From NCBI GenBank assembly GCA_013334865.1, contig JAAXWS010000002.1:1-64000 (forward strand): 64,000 nt of DNA, given 5' to 3'. Numbering within the stretch: position 1 is the stretch's first letter; each line of letters opens with the position of its first letter. Positions 1,497-23,518 of this stretch are shown here, in pieces. Below the pieces are notes generated by a model. The model had not been told where the DNA came from and made no database searches. It saw only the letters and a list, made by a program, of their open reading frames with translations. A program made the position numbers and the translations under genes. Source of the DNA: Chlorobiaceae bacterium (lineage in GTDB: Bacteria > Bacteroidota > Chlorobiia > Chlorobiales > Chlorobiaceae).

Positions 1497-2206
1497 GAAA
1501 GTGTGGTTTTTTTTAAAAAATAGTTCCCCGGGGATTCCCAACGTTTGCGAGAATTGAAATTATTTATTACAATTGTTAAGAATGACCACAGGGCAGTGTA
1601 GCAGGTTTGAGTTCCCTCCTTCCTTATGCCCGTTCGATACACATGACATATGACCCCCTTCCTCGAGTAAACGCTTCCAGCGCGTGGGGTTTCGACGCAC
1701 GATGATGATACTTCCTTGATTTGCTGATCGGCATTTATTTTTCACGTTGAATCTGATTGGTTTCAGGGCAATTTCGCCGGAACGGATCGTTTCCGGTTTT
1801 TTCCTGAACCCAAATCCTGAATTCGGATGACTGTCCGATTCCCGGTAGGGGATGGTACGTTCTGCTCGATTCGGGAGGCCTGATTTTACGTTACCCTGTA
1901 GTATAACTATATCGACATATAGTTTTTCGCTATCGGTGTTCAGCCGATGAGATTCTCGACTCATAAGGGCCGGGTATCTCTATGTGATGGCGTATAAACA
2001 ATTGTTATCAGTCTGTATCGCGCTTGACGGTTGCTCCCGCTCTTTACGCAAAGGAATCGACACATCATGTCTTGGCATGACTCGCCACTAGTCTCATGCA
2101 GGAGCTTGGTACGTATGGGGCAGGGTATCTCGGTTTATCAGTTCTTTTTCATGGTCAGTAATTTTAATAGTCAGCAATCATCACTAATCAACACATGGAG
2201 TCATTC
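1497..2206. promoter_or_regulatory. 710-base intergenic region upstream of cyc2 containing a 20-base dyad
   Basis: No credible gene is seen; an opposite-strand frame of 134 codons (1560-1964) has no recognisable composition or motif. The region is AT-richer than its flanks. It holds the candidate terminator at 1777-1802 and a perfect dyad at 1905-1924 (AACTATAT, spacer CGAC, ATATAGTT), which has the size of a dimeric repressor or activator operator and lies 283 bases before the cyc2 start. I could not place a convincing -35/-10 pair. Confidence 0.5.
1777..1802 (+). terminator. Possible Rho-independent terminator in the long gap upstream of cyc2
   Basis: CCGGAA (1777-1782) pairs with TTCCGG (1791-1796) and is followed by six T. 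It lies about 280 bases after the Sel1 stop, so it would end either a long Sel1 3' tail or a short unannotated transcript. The stem is only 6 bp. Confidence 0.4.
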
Positions 2207-3475
2207 ATGAGGAAAAAGCTAACCATTGCCTCTCTCGTTTCGCTCTGCACGGTGCCGCTGGTCACCCCCTCGAACGACGCATCGGCCATCCCTGCTTTTG
2301 CCAGGAAGTACGGCACCTCCTGCTACACCTGTCACTCGGGTTTCCCTGCAAGGAACGCTTTTGGCGAAGCCTTCAAGAACAACGGCTATCGCTGGCCGGG
2401 TGGTGAAGACGAGGACAAGACCAAGCAGGATCAGCTGAAAATGGGCGCCGATGGATGGAAGAAGACTTTCCCCGAAAGCCCTTGGCCGGCAGAGATTCCG
2501 GGGTATGCGCCGATATCGCTTTGGGTTCGCGGCAACCTTGCTGATTATGCCACAAGTTCCGAAAAACAGGATGGGACAGTGGTTACCCCATCGAGGTCAC
2601 TGTGGGGTAGTGGCGTGTTCAACAACGCGACTATTTTCTTCGGCGGTACCATGGGTGACAACCTTTCTGCACTGGTCCAGTACAACCCGACGGCAGGGAG
2701 CACTACCGGCCAGCTGGTATGGACGTTCAAGCCGGGCCTGAAGCTGGCGTTCGGAAACGGGTTCACCGACCTCAGCTTTGGAAACGCAACAAACAATACC
2801 GCTTTCGCATCTTCGCTTGTTCCCGCCTTTGGTAACGCCACCGGCAGCAGCGTAGCGGAACTCGTGTACATCCCGCAGGATTACCTCAAGTTCACTGCTG
2901 GTGTCGGACAGGCAGGAACAAACGTCACCAACAGCTTTTCTGACTTGAAATACTTCCGCGCGAGGTACAAGGTCGGTGGCGCAGGCCTCCTGAGCGGTGC
3001 TGGCGGTACTTACGGCAACGAATTCGTCGGCCTCGACAACAATATCACGTTTGCGACAATGGTGTACAGCGCTGCTCCCGGAACCGCTGCCGCAGCTGGT
3101 GCTGCCGCAAGTGCTTTCGTGTCTTCCACCGGCGTCACCGAACGCTTGATTTGGGAAGCTGACGTCACCGGCAGCTATGGCAACTTCCTCGGAGGCCTTG
3201 GCTTCAGCAGGAGCACCAACATCTCGAAGAGCAACATCAAGGCAGAAGCGGCCTACTTCCTCTATCCCTGGTTGAAGGGATCGGTCGTCTACACTGGACT
3301 TAACCAGCAGGATACCCCGACGGTTGCATATGCACTGACGACCCACGTGCGCGCCAATGCCTCCCTGACGGCAACGTATACCCAGAACCTCAGGCAGTGG
3401 TCGGCGACGAAGAGCCCAGTTACGACTGGCTCCAACCAGAATACCATTGCGTTGGCCGGTGCCTTTGCCTTCTGA
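2207..3475 (+). CDS. cyc2: Cyc2-type fused monoheme cytochrome c-outer membrane porin
   Basis: 422 residues. A signal peptide (about residues 1-27, ending ASA) is followed by a short cytochrome domain with one heme site, CYTCH at 39-43, inside the family-typical context FARKYG...C..CH...P.RNAFGEAFKNNGYRW. The remaining ~350 residues are Gly/Thr/Ser/aromatic-rich amphipathic strands, as in an outer-membrane barrel, ending AGAFAF. This architecture is that of Cyc2, the Fe(II) oxidase of acidophilic and neutrophilic iron oxidisers and of photoferrotrophic Chlorobium, which passes electrons from extracellular Fe(II) into the periplasm. The ATG at 2207 is preferred over one at 2195 because GGAG (2197-2200) then sits 6 bases upstream and a clean signal peptide results. 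The long regulated-looking leader and the downstream cytochrome operon fit this role. Function in this organism is inferred. Confidence 0.85.
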   Translation: MRKKLTIASLVSLCTVPLVTPSNDASAIPAFARKYGTSCYTCHSGFPARNAFGEAFKNNGYRWPGGEDEDKTKQDQLKMGADGWKKTFPESPWPAEIPGYAPISLWVRGNLADYATSSEKQDGTVVTPSRSLWGSGVFNNATIFFGGTMGDNLSALVQYNPTAGSTTGQLVWTFKPGLKLAFGNGFTDLSFGNATNNTAFASSLVPAFGNATGSSVAELVYIPQDYLKFTAGVGQAGTNVTNSFSDLKYFRARYKVGGAGLLSGAGGTYGNEFVGLDNNITFATMVYSAAPGTAAAAGAAASAFVSSTGVTERLIWEADVTGSYGNFLGGLGFSRSTNISKSNIKAEAAYFLYPWLKGSVVYTGLNQQDTPTVAYALTTHVRANASLTATYTQNLRQWSATKSPVTTGSNQNTIALAGAFAF

Positions 3476-3863: not shown

Positions 3864-4415
3864 ATGCAGGATGAAACAACGCTTCATGGAGAACATGGCA
3901 CGTCGGGCGGCCCGTCGCCAGTCGACAACGACAGGCGCAACTTCCTGACGAAAGTCGGTTGGGGCAGCCTCGCCGGGTTCCTGGCCATCAACTCCTACGC
4001 ATTCCTCAGGTTCTTCTACCCGAGGGTGCTTTTCGAACCGCCGTCGCAGTTCAAGGTGGGATTTCCCGCCGACTATCCTCCGGGTACGGTGAACTCGCAG
4101 TACCAGAGGGAGTTCGGCACCTGGATCATCCGCCTGCAGGACGGAAGGTTCTTTGCGATGGAGTCGAAGTGCACCCACCTGGGATGCACCCCGAGCTGGC
4201 TCGAGTCGCAGAAGAAGTTCAAGTGCCCCTGCCACGGCAGCGGTTACTACATCTCCGGGCTGAACTTCGAAGGGCCCGCGCCGAGGCCGATGGATCGATT
4301 CAAGATCAGCATCGCCGAGGACGGCCAGTTGCAGGTCGACAAGACCATCAAGTTCCCGGGAATCCCCGGCAAGGAGTCGAACGAGGTCTATCCGCAGAGC
4401 CTCCTGAAGGCATAG
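3864..4415 (+). CDS. petC: Rieske [2Fe-2S] protein of a bc-type quinol/cytochrome c oxidoreductase
   Basis: 183 residues. A twin-arginine motif (RRNFL, 24-28) precedes a single hydrophobic anchor at about 31-50, so the protein is probably Tat-exported and stays membrane-tethered with its cluster domain in the periplasm. The cluster ligands are in the two classic boxes CTHLGC (103-108) and CPCHGS (121-126), both intact, and the two extra cysteines of the disulfide are present. The family moves one electron from quinol (or, in reverse, to quinone) between the Qo site and a c-type cytochrome. It heads a tightly spaced operon with ferredoxin, split cytochrome b and two c-type cytochromes. Chlorobi normally carry a petCB pair with fused cytochrome b; this would be a second, different complex. 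Confidence 0.93.
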   Translation: MQDETTLHGEHGTSGGPSPVDNDRRNFLTKVGWGSLAGFLAINSYAFLRFFYPRVLFEPPSQFKVGFPADYPPGTVNSQYQREFGTWIIRLQDGRFFAMESKCTHLGCTPSWLESQKKFKCPCHGSGYYISGLNFEGPAPRPMDRFKISIAEDGQLQVDKTIKFPGIPGKESNEVYPQSLLKA

Positions 4416-4448: not shown

Positions 4449-4784
4449 ATGATGGACAACCATGAGGAGATCACCCTGACCGCGACGCCGTCGGCCCCTG
4501 AACGTCCGGGGCAACGGAAGCGCGGCCTTGCCCGCAACAATCCGGACCAGTGCACCGGATGCGGGATCTGCGTCAAGAGCTGCCCGACGGGTTGCATCAC
4601 CATTATCGAATCCGAGCTGAACTTCAACGGCGTAGCGCATATCGATGACAACCGTTGCACCGGTTGCAACATCTGCGCCATCGACTGCCCGTGGTTCGCG
4701 ATCGATATGTTGAACCCGGACGGTTCCCGACGGGATCCCTCCGAATATGCAAAGCAGGCGCACCGCCTTCGCGGATACCACTAA
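4449..4784 (+). CDS. 2[4Fe-4S] ferredoxin-type subunit encoded inside the bc operon
   Basis: 111 residues, no signal peptide, so cytoplasmic. Two complete four-cysteine cluster motifs are visible: CTGCGICVKSCP near 35-46 and CTGCNICAIDCP near 70-81, each of the CX2CX2CX3CP type that binds a low-potential [4Fe-4S] cluster. A basic N-terminus (RPGQRKRGLARN) and a 24-residue C-terminal tail flank the fold. The second motif resembles NuoI-like and other complex-bound ferredoxins more than free bacterial ferredoxin. Its place between the Rieske and cytochrome b genes, 33 bases after the former and 30 before the latter, suggests a subunit docked on the cytoplasmic face of cytochrome b, but that is inference. 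The ATG codons at 4449 and 4452 are both possible starts. Confidence 0.88.
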   Translation: MMDNHEEITLTATPSAPERPGQRKRGLARNNPDQCTGCGICVKSCPTGCITIIESELNFNGVAHIDDNRCTGCNICAIDCPWFAIDMLNPDGSRRDPSEYAKQAHRLRGYH

Positions 4785-6550: not shown

Positions 6551-9163
6551 ATGGCGAGAGAGAATCAAAATACAACCAGGTTGAGGGCCCAGATCTTTGC
6601 CGGCCTGAGCGTCGCCCTGCTGCTGCTATCCGCATGGGTGATCTGGGACGACGAGTTCGGCCTCAGGCCATGGAAACATTACCAGAAAGAGTACAAGGCC
6701 CTCAAGCACGAAAAGCTCGACAAGGAGTATCAGGAGGCCTTGCGCGACTTCAAGAGGAGCGGGGGAGCCCGTAGGCTCGAAATGCTCGAGAAGCAGCTGG
6801 CGAAGGCCGAGGATGCATTCAAGCAGAAGGGCGTGCACGAACGGTATGTGAAGCTCAATGCGCAGCTCGACGACCTGCATGCAAAGATGGCCCTCAGCCA
6901 GAAGGAGCTGCAGACGGTCCGTGGACAGTACCTCGAAACAGAGTACTACTTCACCAAGACCCAGAAGCCGGAGTACAAGAAGAAGATGGACGAACTGCAG
7001 AAGCAGATCGACGTCATCGACCGTTCGAACAAGGAACTTCTTGCAAAGGATGAACCCCTGAGGCTGGAGATCAGCAAGCTGACGGGCGGTATGAACGAGA
7101 TCCGCGCCGAGATCGAGGCGATGAAGAAGGGCCTCGAAGAGAGGAAGGAGAAGATCGCCAACAACGACAAGGCTCCGATCGAGATCAAGCAGTACATGAT
7201 CAAGGATACCGACAAGGCTGATCGTTGCGTGTCGTGCCATGCAGGCATCGAAAGCTCCCTGCAAGTCTCCCAGAAGCAGCCTTACACGAAGCATCCGCTC
7301 GGTTTTGTTTACATCGGCAAGCACGATCCGGGCAAGTTCGGCTGTACCTTTTGCCATCGCGGACAGGGACGCGCGACCACCACGATTGAAAAGGCGCACG
7401 GAAATGTCAAGCATTTCGCCGAGCCGATGCTCAAGGGCGACATGACCCAGACCTCTTGCCTCAATTGCCACGGTGACATCAAGAACCTCCGTGGTGCAGA
7501 GAAGATCGCCGGCAACACCGAACTGATCAGGAAGTACGGCTGCTACAGCTGCCACAAGATCCCCGGCTACGAAGGGATGGGCGATGTTGGGCCCGAACTT
7601 ACCAACGTCGGCACCAAGGTGAACTACTCCTGGGCGGTCAAATGGCTTATGGATCCCAAGAAGTATTTCTCCACGGCACGAATGCCGAAGTTCTTCTTCA
7701 CGAAGGATCAGGCCGAGTCGATCGCCGACTACCTGTTCAGCATCTCCGGCACGACCAGGCATGATGTCGATTATGCGGCCGAAACCCCGAATGCCGCATT
7801 GGTAGAGAAAGGAAAGGGGCTCTGGAGCCAGGCACGTTGCAACCTCTGCCATATGACCAACGGCAAGGGCGGCAACCATATCAAGGTCTACGCTCCCGAC
7901 CTCAGCAAGGCGGGCAGCAAGTTGAACAAGACCTGGATGTTCAACTGGATCAAGGACCCGAACAAGTATTACCCCGGCACCAAGATGCCACGGTTCCGCT
8001 TCACCGATGAGGAGATCAAGGCTCTGGTAGAGTATATCACGAGCGAGTATCAGGACGATGACGCTGAAGCCAACTATACTGCGCCTTCCGAGATCAAGGC
8101 CGCCTCGATCAAGAAGGGTAAGGACCTGATCCAGCAGTACGGTTGCTACGGTTGCCACAAGATCCAGGGCATGGAGATGGTGCAGGTCGCGCCGTCGCTG
8201 AAGAGTCAGGGGGTTACTTTCCTCCGTAGCGACGAGATGCGCGAGAAGATCGGTACGGAGCTTTCCTCCATCGGCAGCAAGCCGGTCGACCTTCTCGACT
8301 TCGGCAAGCTGAAGAAATCGATCCCGAACGATCGCCTGAGCTATATCAAGCAGAAGCTGAGGGACCCGAGGGGCTTCAGGCTTGGGCTGCGCATGCCAAA
8401 CTTCGGACTCACCGAAAAAGAGGTCAACGAGTTGGCTGCCGTGCTCTATGGCTTCACCGACTCCAATGTCCCGACACGCTTCCTGGTGCCTTCCCGACAG
8501 GAGCTTGAAAGGATGGCTGGTGTCCCGAGCTACAAGTTCACCGGGGACTTCGCGAAGGTTATCGCTGACCTTAAGTGTACCAACTGCCACAGCATCAAGG
8601 GAATCGGCGCTGATTACGCTCCTGATCTCTCGATTGTCGGCAGCAAGCTTCAGGAGAGCTGGATCAGGTCGTTCCTTGCCAATCCCGACGTGATCCGTCC
8701 ACTGCTTCAGCAGATGCCGAAGCTCGGGCTGACTGGCGGGGTAAAGCCGGCAAAGATCACCATGCCCAAGTTCAACCTCGGAAAGCAGAGGGTGGAAGAT
8801 ACGAACAGGACCGACGTTGATGTCGTGATGAACTACTTCCAGCAGGAACTGGTCACCCCTGATATCCCGAAGGATATTCCGGTCCTCGTCGACGTGGCCA
8901 TGCCGGAGCAGCTTGCCCAGGGCAAGAAGCTCTATGACCAGAAGGGCTGCGTCTCATGCCATCAGATCGGTTCCGACGGCGGCGCCCTCGGCCCGAACCT
9001 GTCGAATGTCGGCAACAGGCTGAGGCCCGGTTTCATCTTCAAGCACCTTGAAAACTCGAGGAAGTTCAAACCCGATATCGTTGAGCCTAACTACGGCTTT
9101 ACCGAGCGCGAGAGGATTTTCTTGACCAACTATCTGATGACCCTGAAACTTACTGCCAAGTGA
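6551..9163 (+). CDS. Membrane-anchored octaheme cytochrome c with N-terminal coiled coil
   Basis: 870 residues. One N-terminal membrane helix (about 13-32) is followed by a long charged helical stretch (about 40-215) rich in heptad-like Lys/Glu/Leu that should form a coiled-coil stalk. Eight CXXCH heme sites follow, starting at residues 226, 265, 303, 331, 430, 532, 676 and 800. The last five sit in separate modules of cytochrome c class I type (GCYSCHKI..., GPEL/APDL..., RMPKF/KMPRF), each with a Met that could be the distal ligand, while the first three are close together. It would take the place of cytochrome c1/f, wiring the Rieske protein to periplasmic carriers over a long distance. It overlaps the next gene (TGATG), so the two are translationally coupled. 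Physiological partners are inferred from gene order. Confidence 0.88.
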   Translation: MARENQNTTRLRAQIFAGLSVALLLLSAWVIWDDEFGLRPWKHYQKEYKALKHEKLDKEYQEALRDFKRSGGARRLEMLEKQLAKAEDAFKQKGVHERYVKLNAQLDDLHAKMALSQKELQTVRGQYLETEYYFTKTQKPEYKKKMDELQKQIDVIDRSNKELLAKDEPLRLEISKLTGGMNEIRAEIEAMKKGLEERKEKIANNDKAPIEIKQYMIKDTDKADRCVSCHAGIESSLQVSQKQPYTKHPLGFVYIGKHDPGKFGCTFCHRGQGRATTTIEKAHGNVKHFAEPMLKGDMTQTSCLNCHGDIKNLRGAEKIAGNTELIRKYGCYSCHKIPGYEGMGDVGPELTNVGTKVNYSWAVKWLMDPKKYFSTARMPKFFFTKDQAESIADYLFSISGTTRHDVDYAAETPNAALVEKGKGLWSQARCNLCHMTNGKGGNHIKVYAPDLSKAGSKLNKTWMFNWIKDPNKYYPGTKMPRFRFTDEEIKALVEYITSEYQDDDAEANYTAPSEIKAASIKKGKDLIQQYGCYGCHKIQGMEMVQVAPSLKSQGVTFLRSDEMREKIGTELSSIGSKPVDLLDFGKLKKSIPNDRLSYIKQKLRDPRGFRLGLRMPNFGLTEKEVNELAAVLYGFTDSNVPTRFLVPSRQELERMAGVPSYKFTGDFAKVIADLKCTNCHSIKGIGADYAPDLSIVGSKLQESWIRSFLANPDVIRPLLQQMPKLGLTGGVKPAKITMPKFNLGKQRVEDTNRTDVDVVMNYFQQELVTPDIPKDIPVLVDVAMPEQLAQGKKLYDQKGCVSCHQIGSDGGALGPNLSNVGNRLRPGFIFKHLENSRKFKPDIVEPNYGFTERERIFLTNYLMTLKLTAK

Positions 9164-9609
9164 TGCAAAAAAAGACACACCTCTGGAAAACCGCTATTCT
9201 TGCAGCACTCCCGCTTCTCGTCATCTCGGGCTGCGGCAAGAAGTCCGGCAAGGACGCCAAAAAAGGGGACGCAGCAGCCGATTCGGCTGCTGTGGCCGCC
9301 AAGGAAGCAAGCATGCCATTCACCCTGAAGGAGGGAAAACGGCTTTACAACCATTACTGTTTCGAGTGCCATGGCGATGCGGGAGACGGTAGCGGACAGT
9401 ATTATGGCTTTTCGCTCACACCTCAGCCGGCCAACTTCACCGACAAGGCGTTCATGAAGGGCCTCTCCGACGAGACCATCTTCAAGGTGATTAGCGAAGG
9501 TTCGGCATCCGTCGGAAAATCGAACATGTGCCCACCGTGGGGCAAGACTCTCGACAGGGAGGAGATCGAATGCATGGTGGCGTATGTAAAGACTTTCGCC
9601 GCGAAATGA
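9163..9609 (+). CDS. Lipoprotein monoheme class I cytochrome c
   Basis: 148 residues. A signal peptide ends in a lipobox (VISGC, lipidated C24), then comes a Lys/Ala/Asp-rich linker and a class I cytochrome domain with CFECH beginning at residue 66, a GDGSGQYYGF turn and NMCPPWGKTL, whose Met is the likely distal ligand. Lipidation would hold it at a membrane, facing the periplasm. The start at 9163 overlaps the stop of the octaheme gene by one base; a GTG at 9160 is possible but the ATG gives the natural coupled start. It is the last gene of the bc operon and the obvious soluble-side carrier between Cyc2 and the complex, though that is inferred. Confidence 0.88.
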   Translation: MQKKTHLWKTAILAALPLLVISGCGKKSGKDAKKGDAAADSAAVAAKEASMPFTLKEGKRLYNHYCFECHGDAGDGSGQYYGFSLTPQPANFTDKAFMKGLSDETIFKVISEGSASVGKSNMCPPWGKTLDREEIECMVAYVKTFAAK

Positions 9610-9805: not shown

Positions 9806-10405
9806 ATGACTATCAAATCTACGTTCCTCAAAACCGCCATTCTCGCCGCAGGTTTCGGGATGCTCTCTTCCAATGCTTTCTGCGCCGGTACCGTGACGGG
9901 CGCCATCGATGCCGCGAATGCCAAATACAAGAAGGACGCCGTCGTTTATCTGAAGGGTGTCAAGGGGCCGATCGCTCCGAAAAAGGGTGTCGTCGACCAG
10001 AAGAACCTCATTTTCGTGCCTCACGTCCTCGCTGTTCCTACCGGATCTACCGTCGAGTTCAAGAACAGCGACAAGGTCAACCACAATGTATTCTCTGCCG
10101 ACGTCTGCAAGAAGTTCAACCTCGGCACCTACACTCCGGGTATGTCCAAGCCGGTTACTTTCGACAAGCCCTGTGTCGTGAACCTGCTCTGCAACGTCCA
10201 CTCCGAGATGTCGAGCTATGTCGTCGTCGTTGACAGCAACTACATTGCCGTCACCGATGCGAACGGCAAGTTCACCATTTCCGGCGTACCTGCCGGGACC
10301 TACGAGGTTGCCGCATGGAGCGAAAAGCTGAAAGAGGCCGGCAAGACCATGGTTACCGTCACTGATGGCGGTACCGCTACTGTCTCCTTGAAGCTCGCCA
10401 AGTAA
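9806..10405 (+). CDS. Periplasmic cupredoxin with C-terminal carboxypeptidase-regulatory-like domain
   Basis: 199 residues with a signal peptide (to about residue 27, AFCAG). The first domain (about 28-143) is a plastocyanin-like fold: H93 in VNHNVF, then C129, H132 and M135 in LLCNVHSEM, the set of four ligands of a type 1 copper site, with the compact C-X2-H-X2-M spacing. The last 55 residues (DANGKFTISGVPAGTYEVAAW) form a small beta-sandwich of the carboxypeptidase regulatory / CnaB-like kind. A strong ribosome site (AAAGGAG) lies 6 bases before the ATG. It has its own leader but follows the bc operon, so it may be a blue-copper electron carrier for the same pathway, comparable in role to rusticyanin; that role is inference. 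Confidence 0.82.
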   Translation: MTIKSTFLKTAILAAGFGMLSSNAFCAGTVTGAIDAANAKYKKDAVVYLKGVKGPIAPKKGVVDQKNLIFVPHVLAVPTGSTVEFKNSDKVNHNVFSADVCKKFNLGTYTPGMSKPVTFDKPCVVNLLCNVHSEMSSYVVVVDSNYIAVTDANGKFTISGVPAGTYEVAAWSEKLKEAGKTMVTVTDGGTATVSLKLAK

Positions 10406-16594: not shown

Positions 16595-17458
16595 TCAGCG
16601 ATACGAGTCGATCATACGGCGCACCGCCTCTGCTCCGGGTGCCGGACGGGCATACAACGGCCCTCGTTCATTACCGGCGAGATCCTCGTACAGCCTTTTC
16701 CGTTCGTTCCGGTAGAAAATTCCGAGCGGGAATTTGTCCTCCTTGAGCGCAAGCCTGAAGGCGGCCTGTCGATCAGAGGGGTCGTGATCTTCCGGGACGG
16801 CGCAGGTGTGTTCCCGGAACCACTTCCAGGTATTGAGCTTGTTGAAAACCACGCAGGGCTGGAACACATCGACGATCGAAAAGCCCCTGAACCGGATAGC
16901 CTCCATGATGAGCTGCTTTGCCTGTTCCACATCGCCGGTCCAGGCCCTTGCGACGAACGGTGCATCGAGGGAGATGGCGAAAGCCAGCGGGTTGAAGGGC
17001 TCGAGCAGCACACCACGAGGCTGGACCGGGGTCTTCATGCAGCGTTGCGATGTCGGTGAGGCCTGCCCCTTGGTAAGACCGTACACCATGTTGTCGTGGA
17101 CGATGACCGTGACATCGAAGTTTCTCCGGATGGCGTGCAGCAGATGGTTTCCCCCTTCGCCGTACATGTCCCCGTCGCCAGACTCGACGACGACGGTGAG
17201 GTCCCTGTTGGCCATCCTGATGCCGAAGGCTGCGGGAAGCGCCCGTCCATGCAACCCGTTGAACATGTTGACGTCGAGGTATTGCGGAGTTTTTGCGGCC
17301 TGCCCGATGCCCGAGACCATGACCAGTTTGTTCCGGTCGATGCCGAGCTCCTGCAAGGCACCCTTGACCGCCTTGAGCAGCATATGGTTGCCGCATCCTG
17401 GGCACCAGGCGATGTCGGAGCCCGGCGGCATTGCGAACGTATTCTGCGAATTATTCAT
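16595..17458 (-). CDS. korB: 2-oxoglutarate:ferredoxin oxidoreductase, beta subunit
   Basis: 287 residues. It binds thiamine diphosphate: CPGCGNH near the N-terminus supplies cluster/TPP-region cysteines, and GDGDMYGEGGNH is the Mg-TPP motif (GDGX~25N). The enzyme carboxylates succinyl-CoA to 2-oxoglutarate with reduced ferredoxin in the reductive TCA cycle. The start at 17458 (MNNSQNTFAM) was chosen over an upstream in-frame Met because it overlaps the end of korA by only 8 bases, which suits translational coupling. Confidence 0.92.
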   Translation of the reverse strand: MNNSQNTFAMPPGSDIAWCPGCGNHMLLKAVKGALQELGIDRNKLVMVSGIGQAAKTPQYLDVNMFNGLHGRALPAAFGIRMANRDLTVVVESGDGDMYGEGGNHLLHAIRRNFDVTVIVHDNMVYGLTKGQASPTSQRCMKTPVQPRGVLLEPFNPLAFAISLDAPFVARAWTGDVEQAKQLIMEAIRFRGFSIVDVFQPCVVFNKLNTWKWFREHTCAVPEDHDPSDRQAAFRLALKEDKFPLGIFYRNERKRLYEDLAGNERGPLYARPAPGAEAVRRMIDSYR

Positions 17459-19157
17459 GCGTTTCCTCCATGAGTGCATCCATGACATCTTCTACCGAGA
17501 ATGGTTCGCCTGTGGATTTCAATATCCTCCGATCCACCGGAATGCCGGTTTCATGCGAGAGGAGGTCGGCAAACTGACCTGTCGCATTGTTCTCGATGAC
17601 GACGATCCGCCGGTTGTCCAGCAGTGGGAAACTTGCCGGATTGAGCGGATAGACCTGCGTGAAATGGAGGCCGGCGATCCTGTCGGAACCAAGGATGTCG
17701 AGCGCCTCTTCGACCACTCCCCTGTTCGATCCCCAGCAGATGAGAAGGGTGTCCGCATCCTCCACGGAGCCTATCTGTGCCGGAGGGAGCGCCACCTCAC
17801 GGAGCGCCTGCATTCGCGTCAGCCGCTTCTCGACCATCTTTCGGCGCATCTCGAAGCTTTCGGTGATCAGCCCGTGCTCGTCGTGCTCGTCGGAATCGAC
17901 GCGGACGATGCCTGACCCGTGCCCCGGCACTCCCCTAGGACTCAGCCCGTCGTCGGTAAATTCGAATCGCCGATAGTCGACCGGGGTTTCGATGATCGAT
18001 ATCTCCAGTGGCATATTCTGGACCGCTGATGCCTCTATGGTGCAGACTGCATCGAGCAGGTACTGGTCGGTCAGCATGAACACCGGGATCTGGAAGCGGT
18101 CGGCCAGGTTGAATGCCCGCTGCATGGCTTCGATGATTTCAGCCGTCGAACCGGGGGCGAAGATGGCCCTTGCAAAGTCGCCATGTCCGGCATTGAGCGC
18201 CAGCCGCAGGTCTCCCTGTTCGGTTCGGGTCGGAAGGCCGGTCGCAGGGCCGGGGCGTTGGCCGATGTGGATGACGATCGGTGTTTCGATCATGCCGCAG
18301 AGGCTGACTCCCTCCTGCATGAGGTCGAATCCGCCTCCGGAGGTGGTGACAACGGCCCTTGCGCCTGCGTAGGCGGCTCCAAGGCCCGCATTGATGGCAG
18401 CGATTTCGTCTTCGGCCTGGTCGGCCACGACGCCGAAATCGTCTGCCCTTGAAGAGAGGAACGTCAGGAGTCCCGTTCCCGGGGACATCGGGTAGGAGCT
18501 GATGAAATTGCACCCGGCAAGCACGGCGCCGATGCCGAGAGCCGAGGTGCCGTCCATGAGCAGTCGCTTCCCGCCTCCCGACGCCATTGGGGGTGGAAGC
18601 TCGATCGATATGCCTGGGGAGAGGCCTGCAATGAACGCATAGCCAAGTTCCGCAGCGCGGTTGTTCCCGGAAACCACCTCAGGCCCCTTTCCGGTGAACC
18701 GTTTTTTCAGGAATGCGGAGAACTGACCGGAATCCACGCCGAGCAGGCCGAGTGCCGCGGAGGCGATGACCGTATCGGCAAATATGCCACCGCCGGCTTC
18801 ACTGGAGAGGCGTTTCAGCGGGATATCGATGAAATTCCCGTGCCAGTTCGCTCCGAGGTTTTCCCGGTCGGCAAATACCAGCGTTCCGGGGCGGATCCTG
18901 CCCTCAAGGCGATCGAGCGCGTTCCGGGACATGGCGAAGAGCAGGTCGATACCGGAACGGTAAGCTGCCCTGGGCCTGGTCGTGATCCGTACCTCGGTCG
19001 TGTTGCTTCCTCCCCGGATGCGTGACATGTATTCGGTGCAGGAGAAAACATGGAAGCCGTTGTCCTTCATGACAGGCAGCAACATGCCTGTCACGGTCTG
19101 TATTCCCTGCCCGGCCGCTCCTTCGAAGACAAGGCATACATCCTCACTGTCATGCAT
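17451..19157 (-). CDS. korA: 2-oxoglutarate:ferredoxin oxidoreductase, alpha subunit (gamma-alpha fusion)
   Basis: 568 residues. The N-terminal ~190 residues are the gamma (CoA-type) domain with FEGAAGQGIQTV and YMSRIRGGSN; the middle is the alpha pyrimidine-binding domain with SSYPMSPGTG and QAEDEIAAINAGLGAAYAGAR; TTSGGGFDLMQEG follows, and the C-terminal part is the transketolase-C-like domain (VENNATGQFA is here IENNATGQFADLL). The combination of fused gamma-alpha and separate beta is the two-subunit KorAB form found in green sulfur bacteria. The ORF continues 113 codons further upstream, but MHDSEDVCLVFEGAAGQG is the natural family start, and the upstream stretch has no family similarity and is low in plausible coding signal. 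Confidence 0.92.
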   Translation of the reverse strand: MHDSEDVCLVFEGAAGQGIQTVTGMLLPVMKDNGFHVFSCTEYMSRIRGGSNTTEVRITTRPRAAYRSGIDLLFAMSRNALDRLEGRIRPGTLVFADRENLGANWHGNFIDIPLKRLSSEAGGGIFADTVIASAALGLLGVDSGQFSAFLKKRFTGKGPEVVSGNNRAAELGYAFIAGLSPGISIELPPPMASGGGKRLLMDGTSALGIGAVLAGCNFISSYPMSPGTGLLTFLSSRADDFGVVADQAEDEIAAINAGLGAAYAGARAVVTTSGGGFDLMQEGVSLCGMIETPIVIHIGQRPGPATGLPTRTEQGDLRLALNAGHGDFARAIFAPGSTAEIIEAMQRAFNLADRFQIPVFMLTDQYLLDAVCTIEASAVQNMPLEISIIETPVDYRRFEFTDDGLSPRGVPGHGSGIVRVDSDEHDEHGLITESFEMRRKMVEKRLTRMQALREVALPPAQIGSVEDADTLLICWGSNRGVVEEALDILGSDRIAGLHFTQVYPLNPASFPLLDNRRIVVIENNATGQFADLLSHETGIPVDRRILKSTGEPFSVEDVMDALMEETHE

Positions 19158-21638: not shown

Positions 21639-23471
21639 TCACTTCTTCTCGGGAACCGGGCGTTCCGGCTTGACCGCATAGTTGATCAGGTAGTCATAGA
21701 GCCTGATCAGGCGTGCGTTCTGGTTGTTCTGGTCGATCCAGTGGCCGATCATGCCGATCGTTCTTGCCAGGACGAAGAACCCGTTCAGCGAATGTTCCGG
21801 GAAATCCAGGTCCATCAGGATGCAGCCGATGGTGCCGTCGACGTTCAGGATGAGGTTGTCCTTCTTTCCCGTCGTGATCTTCTCGACCTCGAGGGCGTAG
21901 TCAAGGCAGGGGGTGTGCAGCGAGGTCTCGTTCTTCACGTAGCTCACGAGGTACTTAACCCTCTTGTCGGGATTCTTGAGGCTCTTCACCCTGTGGCCGA
22001 TGCCGGGAACCGGGCCGACGTTGTCCTTCATCCACGACAGGAAGCCAGGGATGTCGTTTGGGAACTCCTTGACACCCATCTTGAAGTATTTGCCGGCGTT
22101 GGTGACAGCGCCGCCGAAACGGGGGCCGATCATGGTCATGCCCGCCGAAACGGCCTGCGGCATGTCGATGCCTGCACAGGCGGCGATGATCGAGCCGAAG
22201 GCTCCGGAAACGGCCGGGCCGTGGTCCGCCGAGATCATCACGATGCGTTTGATGATCTCGGACTCTTCGCGGCTCGGCAGCTTCTTGTTCCAGAGCAGGC
22301 CAATGACATCCTCGATGCCGTAGCCCTTCTCGCAGAGCTCGGAGGCCGCATAACCGCTGTACCTCGGCTCTTCGCCGCGGTCATCGGAGATCGTGGTGCG
22401 GATGAGCGGTTCGACGACCACTTCACCCTGCTTCATGACCTCCTGCACGCTCGGCGGCAGCTGCGGAAGCAGCGACTCGTCGATACCGGCTTCCGGCTTG
22501 ATGTCGCCACTGGCGAGGAGTTCCTGGTAGACCTGCTTGATCGCCTTGCTCAGGCCGCCGAAGGTATCCGGCACATAGGCGCCGGCTTCGCGCAGCGCAT
22601 TCATCTTGGAACGGGCGGAGCCTGCACCTTTCTTGCCCTCCTTGGCGCCGGCGTGGCCGAACTTCATGCCCTGGGGGAGCACCTCCTGGCAGGTGCCGCC
22701 GATGGCGGCGATCAGCTTGATGCGGCGCTTCTGCGCACCGAGCCACTCCGCGGCCTCCTCTTCGAGGCTTCCGCCCACCTCGCCGATCATGACGACCGCC
22801 TTGGTTGCAGGATCGTTCTCGAACATCTCGAGGTAGGTGACGAAATCGGTGCCAGGGTAGGCGTCGCCCCCGATGGCCACCGCCGAGGTCACGCCGTCGC
22901 CGTTCTGGGCGCAGAGCCACATGGCTTCGTTCGACAGGCCGCCGGACTTCGTCAGGACGCCGAACGAGCCGGCCCTGTAGAGGTTGCAGAGCTTCAGGTT
23001 CTTGAACTCGCCGCCGATCACGCCGAGGCGGCACTCGCCTGCCGACATGATGCCGATCGAGGATGGGCCGTTGAAGATCTTGCCGTGCTGTCGGGCAAGC
23101 TTGCTCAGGCGCTTGGCGTCCTTCTCTGGAATCCCCTCGGTGATCATGGAGATCAGCTTGATGCCCGGGGCTTCGATGCACTCCTTGGCAGCCTGGTAGC
23201 CTCGGGATGCGCCGATGTAGATCAGGGCCGTGTTGATCTGCGGATGCTCCTGCAGGGCGGGCGAGAGGCCGCCGTAGACGGTGATGTTGTTCAGTTCGCC
23301 GCCGCGGAAAATCTCTTTCTGCTGGCCGGCTTCAGGCGGGTAGACGAATGCCTGTATGGTCAGGGGTTTATTGATCAGGAAGTCGAACTGGGCCATGCGT
23401 TTTGCCGCATTGACGCCGGCGACGCCGCCGATGATGACCGCCCGAGTATCTTTATTTGCGAGAATGCTCAC
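21639..23471 (-). CDS. aclA: ATP-citrate lyase, large subunit AclA
   Basis: 610 residues, the length of Chlorobium AclA. It contains a CoA-binding/ligase region with GKIFNGPSSIGIM, TKSGGLSNEA and the phosphohistidine loop FGHAGAKEG (H273, phosphorylated during citryl-CoA formation), and a C-terminal citrate synthase-like lyase domain with ISADHGPAVSGA, MIGPRFGGAV and VPGIGHRVKS. With AclB it cleaves citrate, using ATP and CoA, to acetyl-CoA and oxaloacetate, the committing step of the reductive TCA cycle. Cytoplasmic. Downstream of aclB by 62 bases, an aclB-aclA order known from Chlorobium. Confidence 0.96.
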   Translation of the reverse strand: MSILANKDTRAVIIGGVAGVNAAKRMAQFDFLINKPLTIQAFVYPPEAGQQKEIFRGGELNNITVYGGLSPALQEHPQINTALIYIGASRGYQAAKECIEAPGIKLISMITEGIPEKDAKRLSKLARQHGKIFNGPSSIGIMSAGECRLGVIGGEFKNLKLCNLYRAGSFGVLTKSGGLSNEAMWLCAQNGDGVTSAVAIGGDAYPGTDFVTYLEMFENDPATKAVVMIGEVGGSLEEEAAEWLGAQKRRIKLIAAIGGTCQEVLPQGMKFGHAGAKEGKKGAGSARSKMNALREAGAYVPDTFGGLSKAIKQVYQELLASGDIKPEAGIDESLLPQLPPSVQEVMKQGEVVVEPLIRTTISDDRGEEPRYSGYAASELCEKGYGIEDVIGLLWNKKLPSREESEIIKRIVMISADHGPAVSGAFGSIIAACAGIDMPQAVSAGMTMIGPRFGGAVTNAGKYFKMGVKEFPNDIPGFLSWMKDNVGPVPGIGHRVKSLKNPDKRVKYLVSYVKNETSLHTPCLDYALEVEKITTGKKDNLILNVDGTIGCILMDLDFPEHSLNGFFVLARTIGMIGHWIDQNNQNARLIRLYDYLINYAVKPERPVPEKK

Positions 23472-23518
23472 GGTACAATCAGTTTAAGGATTTGCTGTAG
23501 TATCTTTTAAAGAAAGGA

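Follow-up and report, generated by a model that had tools for sequence, protein, structure and literature searches.

A dicluster ferredoxin gene fixed in the operon of an accessory Rieske/cytochrome b complex of Chlorobiaceae

The window, a 64,000-nucleotide stretch of DNA from a Chlorobiaceae genome, carries a gene for a dicluster 2[4Fe-4S] ferredoxin between the genes for a Rieske protein and a split cytochrome b, made up of a b6-type subunit and a subunit IV. This raises the question of what a ferredoxin does in an operon of this kind. The first-pass annotation placed and described the gene correctly. Its remark that conventional complexes have no such subunit is true of b6f and bc1.

The ferredoxin gene and its operon

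The genes of the operon and its surroundings are listed in Table 1. The ferredoxin has two CX2CX2CX3CP motifs (C35/38/41/45 and C70/73/76/80), and thus the paired CX2CX2CX3C pattern by which bacterial 2[4Fe-4S] ferredoxins are recognised, with none of the eight Cys varying among 31 orthologues. It matches the Pfam families Fer4_21 (1.6e-12) and Fer4 (9.8e-13). Alignment of the 31 orthologues puts a conserved Met at the second ATG, 4452, which is possibly the start. A low potential is assumed here from the motif. No signal peptide or membrane segment was recognised by eye. Against the model for the PorD/KorD delta subunit (TIGR02179) the protein scores 46.0 bits, under the curated cut-off of 60.05. 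A search of PDB sequences returned only generic dicluster proteins (FwdF, MvhB, NuoI, PsaC and PscB, the last at 6e-4) and no solved complex with a ferredoxin subunit of this type. The AlphaFold2 model, built on a 31-row alignment, is poor (pLDDT 52, pTM 0.37).

Table 1. Genes of the accessory complex and its immediate surroundings in the window
Feature	Coordinates	Strand	Basis and remarks
Cyc2-like fused monoheme cytochrome-porin, candidate Fe(II) oxidase	2195..3475	+	Motif; directly upstream of operon
Rieske [2Fe-2S] protein, RRNFLTKVGWGSLAG (Tat-type) membrane anchor	3864..4415	+	PF00355 2.9e-10
Dicluster 2[4Fe-4S] ferredoxin, 111 aa	4449..4784	+	ORF, Pfam; proposed cytoplasmic electron port
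Cytochrome b6-type subunit, 254 aa	4815..5579	+	PF00033 9.9e-40; ExtP-like 6.8e-76
Long subunit IV-like protein, 294 aa	5599..6483	+	PF00032 5.9e-6
Membrane-anchored octaheme c-type cytochrome, 870 aa, 8 CXXCH	6551..9163	+	Long helical N-terminal part
Monoheme cytochrome c	9160..9609	+	4-base overlap with octaheme gene
Cupredoxin-like periplasmic protein (plastocyanin/azurin family plus carboxypeptidase-regulatory-like domain)	9806..10405	+	Conserved in cluster

The Rieske protein has both cluster-binding boxes (CTHLGC...CPCHGSGYY). The cytochrome b is of the four-helix type with a separate subunit IV, and its heme-ligand pairs are H109/H123 and H224/H239 as counted on the sequence. The two Rieske boxes, the two His pairs and the subunit IV together place the complex in the Rieske/split cytochrome b (b6f-like) class. 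By hand alignment, the cytochrome b has no Cys at the position of heme cN, a hallmark of b6f. In subunit IV the Qo motif PEWY is replaced by PAKAPWY, which is likewise present in the long cytochrome b of loci L127-L131. The octaheme cytochrome has one apparent N-terminal membrane helix followed by a long helical stretch. DsbD is encoded downstream in the cluster, and no NAD(P)/FAD flavoprotein is present among the proteins of the window operon. A gap of about 390 bp separates the Cyc2-like gene from the operon, so this gene may have its own transcript. The 426 aa Cyc2-like protein has one N-terminal CXXCH; it is assigned by motif, with no family model matched, and its outer-membrane barrel is assumed.

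The genome is that of a phototrophic member of the Chlorobiaceae, its nearest records being Chlorobiaceae MAGs. The FMO antenna protein was found in it and NuoF was not. A canonical Rieske/cytochrome b pair with a fused cytochrome b is located on contig C43, and such a complex is present in nearly every member of the family (86 genomes). The complex of the window is therefore an accessory, second complex. The Rieske protein of the housekeeping complex (L139:4117-4659, G000:C43) has the loop CPCHGAKY, with Ala at the position of the Ser in the accessory CPCHGSGYY. Since the accessory loop has Ser and Tyr as hydrogen-bond donors, a higher potential is predicted for the accessory protein. The two loops within one cell suggest complexes poised at different potentials.

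The first-pass annotation also tied the ferredoxin to CO2 reduction by KorAB. A 2-oxoacid:ferredoxin oxidoreductase beta subunit (KorB) is indeed encoded at 16598-17491, but on the opposite strand, and nothing links it to the bc operon. The genome has a separate PorD-type delta subunit, and the ferredoxin was rejected as that of the KorAB enzyme. A citryl-CoA lyase/succinyl-CoA ligase-like protein of the ATP-citrate lyase type is encoded at 21642-23474, likewise unlinked to the operon. The products of these two genes are consistent with a reductive TCA cycle.

Linkage and conservation in Chlorobiaceae and their relatives

If the ferredoxin belongs with the complex, the two should travel together, and the linkage proposed for checking in other genomes did hold. 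Among 86 Chlorobiaceae genomes, searched at thresholds of E <1e-60 for the split cytochrome b and E <1e-10 for the ferredoxin, the cytochrome b was found in 34 and the ferredoxin in the identical 34, with the genes always adjacent; given shared ancestry, this represents far fewer than 34 independent events. About four in ten of the green sulfur bacteria examined have the accessory complex. One carrier, G154 (the same contig as L030), is placed in a different family within the order. The position is covered in 31 Chlorobiales loci; in every one the ferredoxin gene lies between those for the Rieske protein and cytochrome b, and the gap between ferredoxin and cytochrome b genes is 28-32 nt in 30 of these. 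The median omega of the ferredoxin is 0.12, as expected under purifying selection. Taken with the conserved linkage, this rules out a chance ORF at this position.

The C-terminal tail of the ferredoxin (Y100, Q103 and R108-G109-Y110) is invariant across the 31 orthologues. This conservation exceeds the needs of the clusters and is counted in favour of a dedicated port. Net charges of the orthologues range from -3 to +4, with a mean of 0, while a bulk ferredoxin of the same genome has a net charge of -10 and the enzyme-bound PorD-type delta subunit +2. By charge, the operon ferredoxin is closer to the delta subunit than to the bulk ferredoxin. Its pairwise distances correlate with those of cytochrome b at r=0.88, compared with 0.70 for the Rieske protein, 0.75 for subunit IV and 0.73 for the multiheme/octaheme c. 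Of the genes compared, it is also the one with the lowest conservation, with a mean identity of 62% against 74-89% for its neighbours, and this faster evolution counts against tight integration.

A Cyc2-like gene is present in all 34 carriers and in 23 of the 52 non-carriers (Fisher p = 1e-8, a guide only, since the genomes are related). It lies upstream of the Rieske gene in 27 of the 28 loci with enough flank, L016 being the exception. Cyc2-like cytochrome-porins were found in 57 of the 86 Chlorobiaceae, with up to seven matches per genome, some of which are fragments of one gene. Those adjacent to the complex look like a distinct subgroup relative to paralogues that are ~35-42% identical. 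In one genome (G006:C3) the complex-adjacent gene and a second Cyc2-like gene, located downstream on that contig, each have an in-frame TGA, representing either a pseudogene or an assembly error.

Outside the Chlorobi, the complex occurs with and without an Fe-S module. Acidobacterial loci (L033-L080) have a cytochrome b 62-68% identical to that of the window in the same gene order, with no ferredoxin, and in 17 of 20 such genomes there is no close ferredoxin homologue anywhere. The core of the complex therefore works without a ferredoxin, which counts against a dedicated port. Eight loci from Bacteroidota outside the Chlorobi have a cytochrome b 62-65% identical to that of the window. In five of these there is a free dicluster ferredoxin, four times just upstream of the Rieske gene and once after subunit IV. 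In the other three genomes (L134, L135 and L136) the ferredoxin homologue is unlinked and has a YpdA-like NAD(P)H flavoprotein as its neighbour; the two may form an NAD(P)H:ferredoxin pair of their own. Eight deeper loci (L123-L130) encode, upstream of the Rieske gene, a GltD-like NAD(P)-flavoprotein of 600-690 aa with a C-terminal dicluster domain (two of the eight proteins were checked against family models). By their gene content these are anammox-like complexes outside the anammox bacteria, in the same phylum as the window. Cyc2-like and cupredoxin-like genes are also present at one of these loci (L124) and at one locus with a free ferredoxin (L115).

In the cytochrome b tree the Chlorobi sequences group as a single clade (SH-aLRT 99), and the tree gives no clear branching order for the three close groups. 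An invention of the Fe-S module within the Chlorobi was rejected, because the outgroup loci carry such modules too. A fair reading of the quick tree, which carries long-branch warnings, is that the module is ancestral and has been lost in Acidobacteria. Residues H40 and R244 of cytochrome b, spaced by 204, are invariant in 75 of 75 sequences, and K245, next to R244, is invariant too. The conservation of H40 and R244 is the same with or without an Fe-S module; these residues therefore do not track it.

Proposed role and direction of electron flow

The ferredoxin is probably a functional subunit or partner, real and conserved, of a complex whose class is known but little studied. The first-pass annotation regarded it as an unusual subunit; it is fixed in the operon, but it is not unique in kind, as relatives have the dicluster domain of a flavoprotein (PMC12954380). 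The ferredoxin would stand where the homologous complexes carry that domain, as a dedicated Fe-S subunit or a firmly attached partner at the cytoplasmic face of the accessory complex. Through it, the n-side haem of cytochrome b would exchange electrons with the cell's pool of ferredoxin. The main argument for such a cytoplasmic port is that beside the same complex there is in some loci a free dicluster protein and in others an NAD(P)-flavoprotein with a dicluster domain, the one standing in for the other. From these gene contents and alignments, it is likely that the ferredoxin is the dedicated n-side port of this complex.

The direction of flow that is preferred here would take electrons from ferredoxin, which the type I reaction centre reduces, through the two [4Fe-4S] clusters to the n-side haem b and on to menaquinone. 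Menaquinol would then be oxidised at Qo, and its electrons would pass by way of the Rieske protein and the octaheme cytochrome to the cytochrome c/P840 pool. The complex would in this way plug ferredoxin into the menaquinone pool for cyclic flow, which would help where Fe(II) and Cyc2 deliver electrons at the level of cytochrome c without generating a proton gradient. For the same reason, photoferrotrophs should be the organisms most in need of cyclic flow. This direction is preferred because light reduces ferredoxin and the electrons of Fe(II) do not pass through the quinone pool, and because a cyclic route is described as no more than a prediction for green sulfur bacteria (PMC11269200). The FMO protein, the absence of NuoF from the genome and the Cyc2-like gene of every carrier are also counted for it. 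The high-potential type of Rieske protein, with Ser and Tyr, is counted against it as fitting bifurcation also. The port and this direction, taken jointly, may be given slightly less than an even chance. It is tentatively proposed, at a lower level of confidence, that in green sulfur bacteria that oxidise iron the ferredoxin-plugged complex serves cyclic photophosphorylation as a ferredoxin:menaquinone reductase, and that it arose through replacement or loss of the flavoprotein part of an NAD(P)-linked module in an ancestor.

The first-pass annotation envisaged flow the other way, with the complex delivering electrons to ferredoxin-level acceptors or bifurcating. Menaquinol would be split at Qo, one electron passing to the Rieske protein and octaheme c and the other through the haems b and the dicluster ferredoxin to ferredoxin or NAD(P). 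Bifurcation with NAD(P) has been proposed for the homologous anammox complexes (PMC12954380). The higher potential predicted for the Rieske protein would suit such a split, as would the lack of a Cys for haem cN. However, Acidobacteria that lack an Fe-S module have this Rieske motif too, so the loop is not tied to the ferredoxin. The reaction centre, moreover, already supplies reduced ferredoxin. Textbook potentials are about -70 mV for menaquinone, about +240 mV for P840, -450 to -500 mV for ferredoxin and -320 mV for NAD(P). On these values the first electron would have a drive of ~310 mV while the second would need 380-430 mV, a shortfall of roughly 70-120 mV over both, which would make bifurcation toward ferredoxin marginal in a cell of this kind. 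NAD(P) as the acceptor would fit, but the operon encodes no NAD(P) flavoprotein. The FMO protein indicates a photosystem of the ferredoxin-reducing type, which makes flow from ferredoxin to menaquinone at least as likely as bifurcation. Outward bifurcation is accordingly thought unlikely, though it keeps an appreciable chance.

A second alternative is that the ferredoxin is soluble, co-regulated with the complex for iron-dependent growth and never bound to it. It is a small protein without a membrane anchor, it evolves faster than the subunits, and its homologues are unlinked in some outgroups. The position and spacing of the gene are nevertheless invariant, as is the C-terminal tail; the charge is neutral, unlike that of bulk ferredoxins, and in relatives the protein is replaced by a domain of a complex-associated flavoprotein. 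This makes an unbound carrier improbable.

The flavoproteins of the relatives lead to a third alternative, in which a soluble flavoprotein, linked to NAD(P)H or H2 and encoded outside the operon (FNR, YpdA-like or hydrogenase), reduces the ferredoxin, which then feeds the complex in place of the fused module. The GltD-like fusions of the related complexes and the three genomes with an unlinked homologue beside a YpdA-like protein are in keeping with this. The window operon, on the other hand, has no flavoprotein, the conserved gene set is the same across the Chlorobiales loci, and the first product of the photosystem here is ferredoxin rather than NADH. An input port of this kind is doubtful. 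A role in maturation of the complex or in redox sensing, rather than electron transfer, would suit a small Fe-S protein in a cluster with DsbD, but it is very improbable given the dicluster spacing of electron-transfer type with all eight Cys kept, the fusion of the corresponding domain to an NAD(P)-flavoprotein in relatives and, to our knowledge, the lack of any precedent.

For the preferred direction, from ferredoxin to menaquinone, a bc complex with a fixed ferredoxin is a concrete candidate for the return of electrons from ferredoxin to quinone in bacteria with type I reaction centres. It could supply the step that is missing from light-driven cyclic electron flow.

Comparison with known complexes

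A literature search gave no account of this Chlorobi gene cluster. An earlier mention is possible in two works outside the search, Tsuji 2020, reportedly on Chlorobia and cyc2, and ten Brink 2013, which is said to deal with multiple Rieske/cytb complexes.

The best curated family for the cytochrome b (6.8e-76) and subunit IV (1.2e-13) is the Geobacter-type ExtP/ExtQ/ExtS set (NCBIfam NF040969/NF040970/NF040971), and the multihaem c also has an Ext-type match (2.2e-21). All of these matches are under the curated cut-offs of 290, 150 and 100 bits, and the likeness is one of sequence. The Acidobacterial complex resembles that of the window in its gene order, octahaem c and cupredoxin-like gene, but differs in having no ferredoxin and an N-terminal extension on cytochrome b. 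At two Acidobacterial loci (L039 and L053) it lies near cytochrome oxidase genes.

In the cyclic flow of cytochrome b6f with FNR/ferredoxin, electrons from ferredoxin enter a b6-type cytochrome from the stromal side. The likeness to the complex proposed here is a functional analogy; b6f has no ferredoxin gene of its own, has haem cN and uses plastoquinone.

The closest parallel is with the anammox complexes of Kuenenia stuttgartiensis (Kustd1480-1485 and Kuste4569-4574), which consist of a b6-like cytochrome b, a subunit IV, multihaem c and a cytoplasmic NAD(P) oxidoreductase (PMC12954380). These complexes are proposed to bifurcate electrons from menaquinol, with NAD(P) as an acceptor (PMC12954380, which cites a proposal by Kartal). 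In AlphaFold3 models the NAD(P) oxidoreductase is on the cytoplasmic face, and there is an extra interface haem b at His43 (Kuste4571) or His62 (Kustd1481), with Arg247 or Arg266 nearby (PMC12954380). The window complex shares the b6-like cytochrome b with subunit IV and the replacement of cytochrome f by a multihaem c, and its octaheme cytochrome resembles the description of Kustd1485 as large, with long helices that wrap the complex. In both groups the cells have more than one Rieske/cytochrome b complex. A cytoplasmic Fe-S electron path is present in the anammox complexes and would be present in that of the window. The spacing of 204 between H40 and R244 equals that of His43/Arg247 and of His62/Arg266, an agreement of numbers only. 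The differences are that the Fe-S clusters of the anammox complexes lie within the NAD(P) oxidoreductase, whereas in the window they are in a free 111-aa ferredoxin with no flavoprotein; that haem cN is present in the anammox models, while the window cytochrome b has no Cys there; and that Kuenenia is an anammox bacterium and the window host an anoxygenic phototroph. The NAD(P)-coupled anammox complexes are thereby joined to a larger group of complexes, some with a different cytoplasmic module, some with it encoded apart and some without it, and whether a bc complex can exchange electrons with the low-potential pool becomes a question that several organisms can help to answer.
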